Program-made: the position numbers and the translations under genes
Shown: positions 14,426-38,920 of the stretch, in pieces
Numbering within the stretch: position 1 is the stretch's first letter
Layout of the letters: every line of letters starts with the position of its first letter
Notes under the pieces: generated by a model
The model's database searches: none
Told to the model about the DNA's origin: nothing
Seen by the model: the letters and a program-made list of their open reading frames with translations, nothing else
Origin: a bacterium
GTDB lineage: Bacteria; Patescibacteriota; Minisyncoccia; Phycocordibacterales; JABMNX01
Length of the DNA: 39,720 nucleotides
Reading direction: 5' to 3'
Assembly (NCBI GenBank): GCA_002687905.1
Contig: NZBM01000016.1
Location: 1 to 39,720, forward strand

Positions 14426-14445
14426 AGCTGCCGGACAGGGACTCG
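14426..14445 (-). repeat. Copy of the tRNA-Gln 3' end
   Basis: AGCTGCCGGACAGGGACTCG is identical to 14617-14636, the T-arm and acceptor of tRNA-Gln. It lies 191 bp downstream of that gene, in the same orientation. Confidence 0.85.
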
Positions 14446-14562
14446 GTGTCAGCTCACTAATTCAAAAACCTTACGATATATCGTAAGGTTTTTAAGAAAT
14501 GGCTCCTACCCGGGCTCACTCGTCCCGGCATGTCGGGACTCGCTCCGTCTTTCGAGTCCCTG
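14441..14562. repeat. T-arm-bounded palindromic element of tRNA-Gln
   Basis: In tRNA orientation (right to left) it contains an inverted T-arm copy (TTCGAGTCCCTG on the plus strand, 14551-14562), a GTCCCG/CGGGAC hairpin (14522-14539), a 30-nt palindrome with core TACGATATATCGTA (14464-14493), TTAGTGAGCTGACACC, and then the direct tRNA 3' copy. The part 14441-14493 recurs inverted at 38843-38894. Confidence 0.7.
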
Positions 14563-14618
14563 CCGAACAAAGACCATTGTCGCATTGATGCTTCGGATAG
14601 ATAGCGAAACTGCTCTAG

Positions 14619-14689
14619 CTGCCGGACAGGGACTCGAACCCCGATTTCTTGGACCAAAACCAAGCGTCCTACCATTAGACGATCCGGCA
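14619..14689 (-). tRNA. tRNA-Gln(TTG)
   Basis: Acceptor TGCCGGA/TCCGGCA, D arm GTCTAATGGTAGGAC, anticodon stem CTTGG/CCAAG around TTTTGGT with anticodon TTG, T arm GGGTTCGAGTCCC. No CCA encoded. TATAGT lies about 10 bp upstream as a -10 box. Confidence 0.92.
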
Positions 14690-14725
14690 ATATATAGACT
14701 ATAACCTACTATTATTAAAATATTT

Positions 14726-14802
14726 GTCCAAGAATTTCTTGGACCTCTGTAATAAAATGCAAGCGTCCTACCATTAGACGATCCGGCAATATATAGACTA
14801 TA
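14726..14802 (-). pseudogene. tRNA-Gln 5'-half copy ending in a palindrome
   Basis: 14760-14802 repeats 14661-14703 exactly: the 5' half of tRNA-Gln plus 15 bp of upstream sequence with its -10 box. Beyond the anticodon position the copy differs, then again shares ATTTCTTGGACC. It closes with the perfect hairpin GTCCAAGAATTTCTTGGAC (14726-14744) and an AT-rich tail. It cannot fold as a tRNA and may act as a terminator. Confidence 0.75.
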
Positions 14803-14941: not shown

Positions 14942-15223
14942 ATGAACGCAGTTAAGCAGGCTGACAAGAAAAACGCGGAAGCAGCTCTTGAACGTCTCAT
15001 CACTAGCAACGGGATGGGCGGTGACCCCACCTTGTCGAATGTTCTCTACTTCATGAGTGCATCCTCCCGCACCGACGCTGATCGGATCGCCTTTAAGGAC
15101 AGTCTCCTTGAGACCGGATACGCCACAGACGCTCTCGATCCATCTGATGCTGATATCGGTAACGAGTGCCGGGAAAGTCTTCGCAGACTCTTCCGCGCCG
15201 CAGGGCGCGAAGTGGAAGAATAA
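14942..15223 (+). CDS. Small acidic hypothetical protein, 93 aa
   Basis: Starts MNAVKQADKKNAEAALERLI. Helical and acidic, with a single Cys (DIGNECRESL) and no membrane helix. A CGAGG ribosome-binding site stands about 7 nt before the ATG. A TTGACT promoter lies upstream and one of the strongest terminators in the window follows. Codons are GC-rich (CTC, GCC, GAC), unlike the AT-rich dnaX beside it. It is a complete single-gene unit of unknown function, probably well expressed. Confidence 0.7.
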   Translation: MNAVKQADKKNAEAALERLITSNGMGGDPTLSNVLYFMSASSRTDADRIAFKDSLLETGYATDALDPSDADIGNECRESLRRLFRAAGREVEE

Positions 15224-15225
15224 CT

Positions 15226-15272
15226 TGGGCCGCAGAGAGAGCGACAAGGTCGCTCTCTCTGCGGCCTTTGTC
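15226..15272 (+). terminator. Very strong two-way terminator between the 93-aa gene and dnaX
   Basis: GGCCGCAGAGAGAGCGAC and its exact complement form an 18-bp stem with a 3-nt loop, followed by TTTGTC. A-rich bases upstream allow it to serve the convergent dnaX operon as well. Confidence 0.85.
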
Positions 15273-15279
15273 ATTTCTA

Positions 15280-16299
15280 TTACAACAACTCCATCAACGC
15301 TACCTCAAGTGGTAATTGTGGAATATATGAACGAGGGACTTCGTCATAAACTCTTAAAATCTTCTCCAACACGTCAAGCGTAATTCCCTCTTCTTTGCTA
15401 AGCTCTTCTAGAAATTTTAAATCCTCTTTTGAAAATTGCTCTTTAAAACTCTCCTTCTGCTCGGGAGCGTGCCTCATTAAAAGTGCCGCGCGTAGTTTAT
15501 GAAGGACTAAAGTTACAAAGGTCTTAACATCTAAATTGTTTTTTACAACTTCATCAACTTTACTAATTACAGTCTTCTTATCTTTATTTGAAAGTGAAGA
15601 AAGAAAATCATTTACCAAAGTGCCTTTAGGCGCTCCTGTTACTTTCTCAATATCCTCCGCGGAGATTTTCTTCCCTTTTGACACTGTCAGAACTTTTTGA
15701 AGTATTCCGTGAGCATCCCTGTATGAGCCCTCAGAAAGTATCGCCACTAAATCAGCGGATGGCTCGTCCAGTGTAAAACCTTCAGATTTTGCAACATCTA
15801 TAATCATATCGCGAAGCATTTCCTGGCTTGGCTTTCTGAAAGTATGAGCTTCACATCTTGAGACTATAGTCTCCGGCAACTTTTCAATTTCGGTCGTAGC
15901 AAGAACAAAAACAGCATGCTTTGGCGGCTCCTCTAGAGTCTTTAAAAGCGCATTAAATGCCTCTTTTGTAAGCATGTGAACTTCATCAATTATGTATACC
16001 TTATACTCTGAAGAAAAAGGAAGGGTCGCCACTGCGTCGCGAAGCTCACGAATGTCATCAATCCCTCTATTGCTCGCCGCGTCCATTTCATATAAATCCT
16101 TTTCATCGCACCCTATTTCACGCGCCAAAATGCGGGCAACTGTCGTCTTTCCGGTACCTCGCGAGCCCGAGAAAAGATATGCATGTCCTATATTCCCCCC
16201 TTTTATAGCAGCTTCAAGTACAGAAACTACGTGCTCTTGCCCACGCACATCTTTAAATTTCTCCGGTCTGTATTTTCTATATAGGACTACTTCACTCAT
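15280..16299 (-). CDS. dnaX: DNA polymerase III gamma subunit (short DnaX)
   Basis: Clamp-loader ATPase of the replicative polymerase. Seen: LYRKYRPEKFKDVRGQEHVV, Walker A FSGSRGTGKTTVARIL, Walker B VYIIDEVHML, sensor stretch VLATTEIEKLPETIVSRC. The Cys-rich zinc module that normally sits between Walker A and DAASNRG is absent: the chain goes from REIGCDEKDLYEM straight to DAASNRG. At 339 aa there is no tau extension, so it corresponds to gamma only. It is the last gene of serS-ftsQ-dus-dnaX, 13 nt after dus. Confidence 0.94.
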   Translation of the reverse strand: MSEVVLYRKYRPEKFKDVRGQEHVVSVLEAAIKGGNIGHAYLFSGSRGTGKTTVARILAREIGCDEKDLYEMDAASNRGIDDIRELRDAVATLPFSSEYKVYIIDEVHMLTKEAFNALLKTLEEPPKHAVFVLATTEIEKLPETIVSRCEAHTFRKPSQEMLRDMIIDVAKSEGFTLDEPSADLVAILSEGSYRDAHGILQKVLTVSKGKKISAEDIEKVTGAPKGTLVNDFLSSLSNKDKKTVISKVDEVVKNNLDVKTFVTLVLHKLRAALLMRHAPEQKESFKEQFSKEDLKFLEELSKEEGITLDVLEKILRVYDEVPRSYIPQLPLEVALMELL

Positions 16300-25651: not shown

Positions 25652-27169
25652 TCAATGAGCCGGAGTGGTGAAATTGGTATACACGTACGACTCAAAATAG
25701 TATGCCGCAAGGCGTGAGGGTTCAAGCCCCTCCTCCGGCACTAATAAGGAACTCAAAGGTTTTTTCGGTGGATACAAACGGACGGCGCAAAGCGCCGACC
25801 AAGGATTTTTTGGCGGGAATGCAAGAGAATTCAGAATTTTTGGCGCGCTGGCGCGCACTGTTTTTTCGCCAAGAAGCAGGTGCGAGCCAAAGATTTCTTT
25901 GGCTTTGACCTTTTTCGCAAAAAGGTCATCATCAGAAGCAATTTTGTCCAAGGATTGCGCGTCTTTTAGCCAGTTTTGGAAAGGTGCGAGCCAATCATTC
26001 TACTTGTGTGAAAGAGAGGTCATTTCTTCTTCGAGCGACTTCTTTTCAGATAACAACTTTGCCTTTTGATTGCGATAATCTTGCTCATCAACAACTTGGT
26101 CTAAATAGCCATTAAGAAGTCGCTCTAACTTTTGTAAAATGACCGATAGTTTTGTTTCCTTCTCTTTCACACAAGCAGTCAAAGACGGGGTGGAATTTTT
26201 GTAGTCTTGCAAAGCAAGACGATTTAATTCCTCCGCCCAGTCTTTGGGCAAAGAAACTTTTTTGATTAGAGATGATAACTGCTCATCAAGTTTTTCCGAA
26301 CGAAGCGACATTTCAGGACACTTCACCACCTTCGATTTTTTTGTGCAACGATAATAAACATAATGGTGAACATTGCCATTTTTCTGTCGCTTCGTTTTGT
26401 TTTCAGCAGTTATCATCATTCCACATGAAGCACAGGAAATTAGCCCGCAAAAAGGTTGCGGTTCGTTTTGCGGTTTGCGCTCGGGTTGTCCACGAAACTT
26501 CAACATTTCCTGTGCTTCATCAAAAAGTTTCTTTGAAATGATTGGCTCGTGCTTTCCTTCGTGGATTTCACCGCCATATTTGAAAAGTCCGATGTAAAAA
26601 GGATTGGACAAAATAAAAGACGCTTTTGTTTTTGAGATTCTCTTTCCGGTTCGAGTTGTAACGCCGGACTTCGCCAAAAATTCTGCAATATCCTCTAACC
26701 TTTGATTACCTTTCACATACCGCTCAAAAGCCAAGCGCACAATTTTTGAACGCTTTTTGTCTACGATAATCGTTTTTGTCCGCACATCGTTCAAATATCC
26801 TACCGGCGCTTGGCTTGGGAATATTCCCATTCTCACTTTTTGGCGAAGTCCTCGTTTTGTATTTTCGGAAAGAGAATCTACATAGTATTTGCTTTGGCCG
26901 AACGCCATGTTTAACATGAATTTTCCCTGACTGGTGTTATCGCACCAAAAGGTTGGAAACTTCAAGCTCGCAAGTCTCCCTGTGTCGAGGAGATAGATAA
27001 TGCGACCTCCGTCCACCGAATTGCGGGCAAGACGATCGGGATTCCATGCTAGGATATTTCCGCCGTTCTTTTCTATCTCATCCATACTTATAGGACTAGC
27101 TCCTATAACGGTCTGCAGTGCGACGTACTTTTTGACAATACTTGTATGCAGGGGATATATTACAGACAA
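25652..27169 (-). pseudogene. Serine recombinase, truncated at the N-terminus and cut by a stop
   Basis: Family match from about residue 28: GGNILAWNPDRLARNSVDGG, FMLNMAFGQSKYYVDSLSEN, APVGYLND, the recombinase domain (NPFYIGLFKYGGEIHEGKHE), the zinc ribbon (CASCGMM, then YYRCTKKSKVVKCPE) and a coiled coil. The N-terminal ~65 residues with the catalytic Ser are missing and unrelated sequence precedes. A TAG at 26000-26002 stops the frame. Straight after it, in the same frame, come NDWLAPFQNWLKDAQSL and KVKAKEIFGSHLLL, which I know as the C-terminus of CPR large serine recombinases. That frame ends only inside tRNA-Leu(CAA), antisense. A dead integrase next to a tRNA target is likely. Confidence 0.8.
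25659..25740 (+). tRNA. tRNA-Leu(CAA)
   Basis: Acceptor GCCGGAG/CTCCGGC, anticodon loop CTCAAAA with CAA, long variable arm TGCCGCAAGGCGT, T arm GAGGGTTCAAGCCCCTC. No CCA encoded. The anticodon stem has one mismatch. The recombinase remnant ends on its other strand. Confidence 0.92.
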
Positions 27170-29826: not shown

Positions 29827-29898
29827 GGGTCCATAAGCTAATTGGTAAACTGTCGGTCTCCAAAACCGATTTTCCAGGTTCAAGTCCTGGTGGACCCG
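29827..29898 (+). tRNA. tRNA-Trp(CCA)
   Basis: Acceptor GGGTCCA/TGGACCC, anticodon stem TCGGT/ACCGA around CTCCAAA with anticodon CCA, T arm CCAGGTTCAAGTCCTGG, discriminator G. No CCA tail encoded. Confidence 0.92.
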
Positions 29899-29907
29899 CT
29901 AGGGTCA

Positions 29908-29937
29908 AAAAGAGCAGGTTTTCCTGCTCTTTTTGAT
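29908..29937 (+). terminator. Terminator after tRNA-Trp
   Basis: AAAAAGAGCAGG and CCTGCTCTTTTT pair around TTTT: a 12-bp perfect stem ending in a T-run. Confidence 0.85.
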
Positions 29938-29947
29938 TTCTTACTGT

Positions 29948-30079
29948 CACCAGGACTTGAAAGGCACAGCCGCGCCGAAGGAAGAAGCGGCGAGCCCAGA
30001 CGAAAAGTACTTAGTAAAATTGAGTCCATAAGATGAAAATTTTACTTAGTAACTGGTCGTCAAGTCCTGGTGGACCCGC
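29948..30079. repeat. T-arm-bounded palindromic element of tRNA-Trp
   Basis: Begins with CACCAGGACTTGAA (29948-29961), the exact inverse of the tRNA-Trp T-arm (29879-29892). Next come a GCCGC...GCGGC hairpin and an AGTACTTA...TTAGTAACT hairpin. It ends in a direct 20-bp copy of the tRNA 3' end (30060-30079 equals 29880-29899). Confidence 0.75.
30022..30079 (+). pseudogene. Remnant of a second tRNA-Trp
   Basis: GTCCATAAG (30024-30032) matches the tRNA-Trp 5' end (29829-29837), and 30060-30079 matches its 3' end. Between them only 27 nt unrelated to the tRNA remain, so no cloverleaf is possible. Confidence 0.6.
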
Positions 30080-37574: not shown

Positions 37575-37645
37575 GGCCTGGTAGCCAAGTGGTAAGGCAA
37601 GGGACTGCAAATCCCTCATCACGGGTTCGATTCCCGTCCGGGCCT
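37575..37645 (+). tRNA. tRNA-Cys(GCA)
   Basis: Acceptor GGCCTGG/CCGGGCC, anticodon stem GGGA/TCCC around CTGCAAA with GCA, T arm CGGGTTCGATTCCCG. No CCA encoded. It directly abuts rbfA, so it may be co-transcribed. Confidence 0.92.
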
Positions 37646-37646
37646 C

Positions 37647-37688
37647 AAGCAAAGATTTACTACCTCTTTTGGTAGATAAATTTTTGCT
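37647..37688 (+). terminator. Terminator after tRNA-Cys
   Basis: AGCAAAGATTTACTACC and GGTAGATAAATTTTTGCT pair with a small internal loop around CTCTTTT; the T-run lies in the 3' arm. Confidence 0.6.
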
Positions 37689-37697
37689 AGTAGTTTT

Positions 37698-37801
37698 GGA
37701 ATCGAAAGACGGACCCAGCACCTAACGCGTTAGGTGCTGGGGAGTCCTGGGAGGAGGTTCTTAGCGAACGTAGTGAGCTTAGAAACCTGACCCCGATTCC
37801 C
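37698..37801. repeat. T-arm-bounded palindromic element of tRNA-Cys
   Basis: GGAATCGAA (37698-37706) is the inverse of the tRNA-Cys T-arm. The element contains the hairpin CCCAGCACCTAACG/CGTTAGGTGCTGGG (37714-37741) and a GGTTCTTAGC hairpin (37756-37787). It closes with CGATTCCC (37794-37801), a direct copy of 37628-37635. Bases 37702-37747 are identical to 38779-38824. Confidence 0.7.
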
Positions 37802-37809
37802 TACACAGA

Positions 37810-37891
37810 GCCGGAGTGGTGGAATTGGTATACACGCTCGACTTAAAATCGGGTCCCTTACGGGATGCGGGTTCGATTCCCGCCTCCGGCA
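37810..37891 (+). tRNA. tRNA-Leu(TAA)
   Basis: Acceptor GCCGGAG/CTCCGGC, anticodon stem CTCGA/TCGGG around CTTAAAA with TAA, variable arm GTCCCTTACGGGAT, T arm GCGGGTTCGATTCCCGC. No CCA encoded. Confidence 0.93.
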
Positions 37892-37917
37892 CAATCTACT
37901 GTTGATTATAAATAGTG

Positions 37918-37943
37918 AAATCATACGATATATCGTATGATTT
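37918..37943. promoter_or_regulatory. 26-bp palindrome overlapping the start region of the TrpR-like gene
   Basis: AAATCATACGATA and its exact complement. An identical copy stands at 38355-38380 behind the gene. The position at the 5' edge of a DNA-binding protein gene fits an autoregulatory operator; it could also be a terminator for tRNA-Leu. Confidence 0.7.
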
Positions 37944-37948
37944 TGTTT

Positions 37949-38350
37949 ATGCCTCATATTTCTAAAAGGAAGCCGGATGCTAAAACAGTTGCTGATTTAG
38001 AAAACTATTTGCTATCTATAATGAATAAAGCGGGCTCAAAAACTCGGCTAAGGATTTTTGGTGAATTGTTAACGGAGACAGAAAAGATAATGTTAGCCAA
38101 AAGACTTGCGATCATTTTCTTGGTTCGAAAAGGTCTTTCTCCTTACAAGATCAGTGAGTTGCTAAAAATCAGCCCATCTACTGTTGAACGTTTTGAAAAA
38201 TCAATCGAGTTTGGGAGATACAAGAACACGTCAGATTGGTTATGGAAAAATAGTAAGGAGGGTTCGTTTGAAGCATTATTAGAGTCTATTGTTAAACTCG
38301 CTTTTACTGGGAAAACAAAATCCTTCAAAAAATTTATTGATGAGTTCTAA
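37949..38350 (+). CDS. TrpR/YerC-like DNA-binding regulator
   Basis: Starts MPHISKRKPDAKTVADLENY, a start I recall from CPR TrpR-like proteins. LLTETEKIMLAKRLAIIFLV and the helix-turn-helix GLSPYKISELLKISPSTVER are the Trp-repressor/YerC core. About 50 further residues (FGRYKNTSDWLWKNSKEGSF) extend it to 133 aa. The tryptophan-binding residues cannot be judged, and YerC proteins are not known to bind tryptophan. The frame is open to ATG 37937, but that ATG lies in the palindrome. Exact 26-bp palindromes border the gene, which sits between tRNA-Leu and tRNA-Lys. Confidence 0.85.
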   Translation: MPHISKRKPDAKTVADLENYLLSIMNKAGSKTRLRIFGELLTETEKIMLAKRLAIIFLVRKGLSPYKISELLKISPSTVERFEKSIEFGRYKNTSDWLWKNSKEGSFEALLESIVKLAFTGKTKSFKKFIDEF

Positions 38351-38354
38351 ATCA

Positions 38355-38380
38355 AAATCATACGATATATCGTATGATTT
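38355..38380. promoter_or_regulatory. 26-bp palindrome behind the TrpR-like gene
   Basis: Identical to 37918-37943, 4 nt after the stop codon. With its T-run it can serve as terminator; as a protein-binding site it would let the regulator bracket its own gene. Confidence 0.7.
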
Positions 38381-38418
38381 GTATAAGTTAAATTTATTGA
38401 TATTATCTCTGTGTCAGA

Positions 38419-38491
38419 CCGCCTATAGCTCAGTTGGTAGAGCAACTGCCTCTTAAGCAGTGGGTCCTAGGTTCGAGTCCTAGTGGGCGGA
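38419..38491 (+). tRNA. tRNA-Lys(CTT)
   Basis: Acceptor CCGCCTA/TGGGCGG, D arm GCTCAGTTGGTAGAGC, anticodon stem ACTGC/GCAGT around CTCTTAA with CTT, T arm CTAGGTTCGAGTCCTAG. No CCA encoded. Confidence 0.9.
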
Positions 38492-38647
38492 CAAGCGCAA
38501 TGAAAACGTTTTGGCGTTTTTGTTAGCGAGCAAACTGCTTTGCTCGCGGCGCTTGCCCGAGCCGGAATATGTCGCTTTGCGACTATGAGGCGGGGTCGCG
38601 AGTACTTATGAGCGTAGCGAATTAGTAACTTGTGGCGACAAATATAT
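38492..38647. repeat. Hairpin-rich spacer between tRNA-Lys and tRNA-Leu
   Basis: Holds an AAAACG/CGTTTT hairpin with T-run (probable tRNA-Lys terminator), GCGAGCAAA/TTTGCTCGC, GTCGC/GCGAC, and an AGTACTTA...TTAGTAACT module shared with the tRNA-Trp element. I see no gene here; frames over it are antisense to tRNAs. Confidence 0.6.
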
Positions 38648-38732
38648 GCGCGAGTGGCGGAATTGGTAGACGCGCTAGTCTTAGGAACTAGTATCGTAAG
38701 ATGTGGAGGTTCGAGTCCTCTCTCGCGCACCA
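38648..38732 (+). tRNA. tRNA-Leu(TAG)
   Basis: Acceptor GCGCGAG/CTCGCGC, anticodon stem CTAGT/ACTAG around CTTAGGA with TAG, variable arm TATCGTAAGATGT, T arm GAGGTTCGAGTCCTC. The sequence continues ACCA, so the CCA end may be encoded, unlike in the other tRNAs. Confidence 0.92.
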
Positions 38733-38741
38733 GATTAAAAT

Positions 38742-38763
38742 ACCGGCTTTTGCTGGTTTTTTG
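38742..38763 (+). terminator. Terminator after tRNA-Leu(TAG)
   Basis: ACCGGC and GCTGGT pair (one G-T) around TTTT, followed by TTTTTTGA. Confidence 0.7.
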
Positions 38764-38775
38764 ATTTGGTCTGAA

Positions 38776-38896
38776 GACTCGAAAGACGGACCCAGCACCT
38801 AACGCGTTAGGTGCTGGGGAGTCCGGGCAGGAGGCACTTACCAAAAACCTTACGATATATCGTAAGGTTTTTGAGTTAGTGAGCTGACGCCGAGTT
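38776..38896. repeat. T-arm-bounded palindromic element of tRNA-Leu(TAG)
   Basis: GACTCGAA (38776-38783) is the inverse of part of this tRNA's T-arm. It is followed by the CCCAGCACC hairpin (38791-38818), the 30-nt TACGATATATCGTA palindrome (38843-38872), TTAGTGAGCTGACGCC, and CGAGT as the closing T-arm trace. It shares 46 bp with the Cys element and the second half (inverted) with the Gln element. Confidence 0.7.
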
Positions 38897-38920
38897 CACA
38901 ACGCACAGCTAAAGTAAGCC

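Follow-up and report, generated by a model that had tools for sequence, protein, structure and literature searches.

Integrative elements that encode a tyrosine or serine integrase insert into the 3' part of a gene, restore it, and leave its native end as an attR repeat; the T-loop and tmRNA are known integration sites. Those known to us span kilobases and carry cargo in addition to the integrase gene. The units found in the stretch of DNA analyzed here (the window, 39,720 nucleotides of a 0.59-Mb genome termed G000) resemble such elements and islands, since the gene 3' part is restored by an element-borne copy and the native end forms a direct repeat, but they are gene-free, measure about 0.2 kb, contain an inverted copy of the target, and use one core for many targets. 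A comparison with other systems gave the following picture. (i) Like CIMEs and integrase-less elements flanked by att sites, the units have att-like flanking repeats and no recombinase; CIMEs, however, derive from a known ICE and share its att sites, whereas these units possess a conserved folded core, and no autonomous parent ICE or IME was seen among the loci read. (ii) They share with integron cassettes and attC sites the arrangement of small tandem units next to a fixed site and a recombination site with complementary, hairpin-forming halves, but their target is the end of a host gene and their arms vary with it. The folding of attC sites and the use of their bottom strand are treated in PMC2727003. 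No integron integrase was recognized in the genomes of the window's family, which mostly have one Xer-like PF00589 match, and comparison by eye with attC R and L boxes (GTTRRRY type) revealed no match. The CCTAAC..GTTAGG pair of hairpin 1 was rejected as attC boxes, since its spacing is 2 nt and its hairpin is one of those exchanged between copies. (iii) Subterminal hairpins, short guide-target pairing, and many gene-free copies are reminiscent of non-autonomous IS200/IS605 relatives and of REP/RAYT systems, from which the units differ in that the Y1 enzyme is not present in all element-rich genomes, the arms measure 9 to 22 nt, and a gene end is replaced. (iv) Like IMEX, the units would use a resident Xer recombinase in trans, the link to Xer being made here by elimination only. 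An Rfam scan of the window reached the gathering score for tRNA only, with no family covering the elements, and neither Rfam nor the papers searched yielded a described class of this kind, in a limited search that covered few subscription journals; the first-pass annotation had likewise known of no such class. We place the units as integrative elements at gene ends with an anatomy common to no family tested.

In the window, the first-pass annotation had described an inverted T-arm copy, a hairpin core, and a direct copy after four tRNA genes, and all four elements were recovered where it had placed them (Table 1). Downstream of tRNA-Gln, tRNA-Trp, tRNA-Cys, and tRNA-Leu(TAG), an inverted copy of that tRNA's own T-arm, ending exactly at T54, is followed by a structured core of about 100 nt and by a direct copy that starts at T55/C56. 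The direct copies of Gln and Trp, which include the acceptor, are indeed exact over 20 bp, as against about 7 to 8 bp left in Cys and Leu. The motif AGACGGA, described as shared by three of the elements, is one form of a covarying AGNCGGA...GAGNC arrangement, which reads AGGCACA...GAGCC in Trp. The count of four was too low, since a fifth, degenerate copy after tRNA-Lys (about 38526-38639) had been missed. This region (38493-38650) contains a 9-bp hairpin with a CTGC loop and a decayed core, and the Lys element of the related genome G001 resembles it.

Table 1. Features of the five elements in the window (S1, gene-proximal end; S2, direct copy; hp0, hairpin between tRNA and element; M1, core type; R1, covariance model of the core)
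Feature	Position	Strand	Evidence
Gln S1, tRNA-Gln 3' half from T54 to tRNA end, functional copy	14618..14638	-	
Gln inverted copy of T-arm 3' half (CAGGGACTCGAA), end at complement of T54	14551..14562	-	
Gln core M1 (AGACGGA-hp1-GAGCC-hp2-GACAC), 105 nt	14446..14550	-	R1, 119.5 bits
Gln S2, direct copy of T-arm 3' half and acceptor, 20 bp exact	14426..14445	-	
Trp S1, tRNA-Trp from T54 to end	29879..29899	+	
Trp hp0, terminator-like hairpin between tRNA-Trp and element	29905..29936	+	Sequence and fold; absent from consensus terminator scan
Trp inverted copy (CACCAGGACTTGAA)	29948..29961	+	
Trp core, M1 variant (AGGCACA...GAGCC), 98 nt	29962..30059	+	R1, 83.7 bits
Trp S2, direct copy (TCAAGTCCTGGTGGACCCGC), 20 bp exact	30060..30079	+	
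Cys S1	37626..37646	+	
Cys inverted copy (GGAATCGAA)	37698..37706	+	
Cys core M1	37707..37793	+	R1, 100.8 bits
Cys S2, decayed direct copy, CGATTCCC left	37794..37801	+	
Lys hpL, 9-bp hairpin with CTGC loop, fifth degenerate element	38526..38547	+	By sequence
Lys degenerate core M1 (AGCCGGA...GAGGC...ACTTA...TTAGTAACTTGTGGCGAC)	38560..38639	+	By eye; not listed by R1
Leu(TAG) S1	38710..38732	+	
Leu(TAG) hp0, terminator stem between tRNA and element	38742..38757	+	
Leu(TAG) inverted copy (GACTCGAA)	38776..38783	+	
Leu(TAG) core M1	38784..38890	+	R1, 133.2 bits
Leu(TAG) S2, decayed direct copy (CGAGTTC)	38891..38897	+	

The inserted unit, gene-free and approximately 130 to 250 bp long, comprises, in this order, S1 (a replacement gene 3' end), usually a terminator hairpin, the inverted copy, the structured core, and S2 (the displaced native end). 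Its anatomy was derived from 84 loci with both copies. The search fixed the end of the inverted copy at the complement of T54, but this end is exact and not search-imposed, since the constant AGNC comes next in most copies. The direct copy starts between T54 and G57, usually at C56, and its end most often lies within a few nucleotides of the tRNA 3' terminus. The freshest copies have a nearly perfect hairpin of about 40 bp that is made up of the tRNA 3' half, the terminator hairpin, and the inverted copy and contains at most one interruption, a small 9-bp hairpin with the loop CTGC. The latter (hpL) lies within the inverted copy, was found in 24 copies, measures exactly 9 bp in 23 of them, has the loop CTGC, CTAC, or CTTC, and lies 10 to 15 nt, usually 13, before the T54 end. 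A primer-binding site of a retroelement primed by a tRNA 3' end was rejected in view of the strict T54 boundary and of copies that extend past the tRNA 3' end into flanking DNA. Where S1 and S2 disagree, the inverted copy sides with S1 31 times and with S2 7 times, a bias that is expected if S1 and the arms travel together but also from decay of S2 alone. In a few copies, the S1/S2 match continues for 14 to 50 nt past the tRNA end, which looks more like target duplication or a truncated tandem unit. At three loci (L086, L087, and L162), the direct repeat, reaching up to 45 to 50 nt past the tRNA, crosses the terminator and stops within the small hairpin, as would a second tandem unit truncated at the tip of that hairpin.

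An alignment of ten copies from the window's genome resulted in a three-way junction, in which P1 is formed by the inverted and direct copies, hairpin 1 is preceded by AGNCGGA and followed by GAGNC, and hairpin 2 has conserved internal loops. Paired cells amount to 88.6%, compared to 76.4% after shuffling and 31 to 48% after sliding, a control that flatters the fold because the structure was derived from the same sequences. Better support is provided by the pairs changed on both sides (27 versus 10 in shuffled alignments) and by the several pair types observed at the GNC pair in a wider set. In the ftsZ units described below, the last arm does not pair to S2, a point against the integrative reading favored here. 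At least one second core type exists, consisting of a hairpin, TGTACTGA, and a hairpin with CTGTAAG, with the same arm layout. Hairpins appear to be exchanged as whole units. Hairpin 2 of many copies contains a member of a palindrome family around ACGATATATCGT, which seemingly also exists free-standing elsewhere (window 38837-38876 and 14461-14496; G000 contigs C14, 950-987; C8, 27503-27539; and C4, 14127-14163). A hammerhead or other ribozyme core was discarded by eye, since the conserved residues do not fit.

The first-pass annotation had made an excess of T-arm copies over chance the test of its reading, and such an excess was found. A scan made without using the core detected an inverted and then a direct copy at 9 of 32 scored tRNA loci of the window's genome, versus 0 to 3 with T-arms swapped between loci. 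At 210 tRNA loci fetched via an unrelated gene, there were 22 matches versus 4 to 6 after swapping. Inverted copies of at least 11 nt were present for 28% of the tRNAs with their own T-arm, 2% with swapped T-arms, and less than 1% in Markov-shuffled flanks (343 loci, a set enriched for loci fetched because a core was present, unlike the own-genome and 210-locus sets).

The R1 model identified about 18 good copies in the window's genome, and the loci read were stretches surrounding tRNA genes and model matches. Matches were obtained in 49 of 60 genomes searched from the same order of Kaiserbacteria-like CPR (the window's genome counted) and in 18 of 241 genomes sampled across the phylum, both figures being lower bounds due to strict filters; the relatives belong to Kaiserbacteria, Taylorbacteria, Zambryskibacteria, and comparable Paceibacteria. 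Of the 71 cores in four related genomes, 59 are located at most 325 nt downstream of a tRNA gene and on its strand, most of them 40 to 70 nt from the tRNA end. The tRNA genes with a core start within 130 nt number 13 of 34 in G000, 14 of 37 in G001, 7 of 41 in G002, and 12 of 36 in G003, and orthologous tRNA sites among these genomes are often empty. With 17 to 38% of the tRNA genes capped in four CPR genomes of 0.6 Mb, the units may be an abundant undescribed mobile element of this group and can mislead the annotation of tRNAs and repeats. With respect to carriage by phages, a search of viral contigs for one exact core pattern was negative.

Cores far from tRNA genes include units at the 3' ends of tmRNA (confirmed with Rfam family RF00023), ftsZ, and clpP, each unit having arms that match its own target, so that the T-arm, which had been thought to define the target, does not. 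At these and other sites, occupied and empty orthologous loci could be compared. The end of ftsZ is occupied in G000, G001, and G002 and empty in G003 to G005 and in other relatives with a readable ftsZ end, and that of clpP is occupied in G002 and G003 and empty in G000, G001, G004, and G005. The tRNA-Thr(CGT) site is occupied in G000 and empty in G001, with common sequence after the gene end; the G000 flank continues like the empty site, with a decayed gene end in between, the G000 tRNA lying beyond the contig end. The ftsZ and clpP sites offer a clean readout because coding sequence marks the native and the imported end. In G001, S1 and S2 of ftsZ differ at 10 nucleotides, corresponding to 8 synonymous and 0 non-synonymous codons of 12, and the functional and the displaced end both encode VPAFLRRSKLK*. 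In G002, S1 and S2 of clpP differ in 3 synonymous and 0 non-synonymous codons of 7. The replacement end keeps both genes open and intact. Since neutral decay of a displaced copy would be expected to change some amino acids, the two ftsZ ends must have evolved separately under selection, and the functional end was therefore imported with the element. Two units are present at the Cys locus of G001, of which the distal one is orthologous to the G000 unit and the proximal one, on the tRNA side, is new. The orthologous units have similar flanks but different hairpin arms, which implies that cores or arms can be exchanged between resident units.

Taken together, these data probably reflect integrative elements without genes that bring along a replacement 3' end for the gene together with its inverted copy and would be moved in trans by a recombinase. 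Insertion would take place at gene 3' ends, mostly of tRNA genes and there at the T-loop, by site-specific recombination at the gene-end sequence; the enzyme would act in trans, since no gene lies within the elements, and the inverted copy may pair with the gene-end sequence to create a folded attachment site. The target gene would keep working because S1 restores it, leaving S2 free to decay, and a later insertion would add a new unit beside the gene and so give rise to tandem arrays. The proposal of the first-pass annotation that these are small non-autonomous elements using a gene end as attachment site, the direct copy being attR, is supported by the occupied and empty sites, by a distal copy that decays next to a gene-proximal copy that stays functional, by the arrays, and by the imported end of a protein gene. 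Such elements would provide a minimal system in which to study the requirements of integration, namely, no genes, a fold, and a target copy.

At 130 to 250 bp, the units are too short to encode an integrase and are therefore non-autonomous at most; no recombinase was linked to them, and no recombinase-bearing autonomous relative was found in the loci read. Most genomes of the window's family encode one XerC/D-like protein (PF00589), and of the three families of recombinases for which matches were sought, Xer alone is present in all element-rich genomes of this family, although several relatives in the order have Xer and no core match. The Y1 transposase (PF01797) was discarded as mover because it has no match in G003, G004, G005, and G026, which carry 9 to 19 core matches, and so was a serine recombinase, with no match in G001, G003, G004, and G026; an enzyme supplied by a phage or plasmid would be compatible with both gaps. 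By elimination among the families searched, the lone XerC/D-like recombinase of each genome is a speculative candidate.

The novel part is the fit of the arms to each target. Cores at different tRNAs of G000 are 92 to 98% identical, but from the tRNA to the inverted copy the similarity of these units is at random level. Since an ordinary integrase would need one element lineage per target, either cores are exchanged, as supported by the Cys locus, or targets are reprogrammable. It is conceivable, but rather doubtful, that a single folded core is aimed at many gene 3' ends by a resident recombinase, with arms formed anew for each target as its inverted copy. Were the arms truly remade per target, this would be a kind of insertion-site choice not known from recombinases.

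Several alternatives were weighed against these gene-free integrative elements. We consider it unlikely that the inverted arms are a guide that programs insertion, acting as single-stranded DNA as in IS200/IS605 or as RNA as in IS110. Such a guide would explain why target-complementary arms flank a fixed hairpin, why the same core occurs at many gene ends with fitted arms, and why two or more core types share one arm layout, but Y1 transposases are missing from several element-rich genomes (G003 and G026), the units are gene-free, and replacement by a foreign S1 is unlike either system. Also quite unlikely is a copying accident instead of site-specific recombination, in which direct and inverted duplicates of the gene end arise around a spreading hairpin core, either through transposition or through fold-back template switching at the terminator hairpin. 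The near-perfect palindrome of S1, hairpin, and inverted copy in fresh copies, the long repeats of L162, L086, and L087, and the variable repeat length would be accounted for. However, the imported synonymous differences of the ftsZ and clpP S1 need DNA of another lineage, the repeat mostly stops at the tRNA end in the manner of an attachment site, and the fixed geometry of hpL and the shared cores need a specific process.

We give little credence to a regulatory RNA read through from the tRNA, whose inverted copy would control tRNA folding or processing by switching between pairing with the 3' half of the tRNA and pairing with the direct copy. The strongly conserved fold with its compensatory changes and the long hairpin of fresh copies would suit such an RNA, as would the excess of G-T over A-C in core helices (47 versus 19 in helix context, mostly in hairpin 2). 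The latter is inflated by the model-fitted alignment, so that it is weak evidence of strand preference, and the target-copy helix P1 has none (14 versus 14). The same units are used at tmRNA, ftsZ, and clpP ends, which argues against an RNA that pairs with or imitates tRNA, as the first-pass annotation had also considered; moreover, 17 to 38% of the tRNAs in four related genomes carry a unit, with orthologous sites frequently empty, the unit is often set apart from the tRNA by a terminator, and a scan of two window stretches gave no promoter-like site that faces the core. Hairpins resembling terminators are present between tRNA and unit, but ordinary tRNA terminators or trailers with chance similarity are refuted by the permutation and shuffle controls and further contradicted by the covariation and the wide distribution.

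Several other features were noted. Two copies of the tRNA-Gln promoter region and 5' half are present with about 55 bp between them (window 14690-14790, minus strand), and similar 5'-half duplications precede tRNA-Val on contig C17 of G000, tRNA-Cys in locus L104, and tRNA-Lys in L159; this would fit a second class of elements that acts on the 5' side. Downstream of tRNA-Leu(TAA), a TrpR-like helix-turn-helix gene (PF01371; window 37937-38350) lies between two AATCATACGATATATCGTATGATT copies, and in G001 two tandem elements take the place of this region. A large serine recombinase with an incomplete N-terminal domain (PF00239/PF07508), encoded next to tRNA-Leu(CAA) (window 26000-27169, minus strand), is probably a decayed ordinary integrative element. 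In genome G289 (locus L241), tRNA-Glu is separated from an older unit by an island that contains methyltransferase-like genes and encodes a serine recombinase of 500 aa. At the end of contig C6 of G000 (L112, 8250-10656), the Pro unit is preceded by at least 2.4 kb with two genes, whereas in G001 tRNA-Pro itself occupies this position; tRNA-Pro of G000 was not found. In L238, a group I intron (Rfam; about 15209-15487) is located just upstream of a unit, and its flanks may represent a tRNA gene interrupted into two halves.
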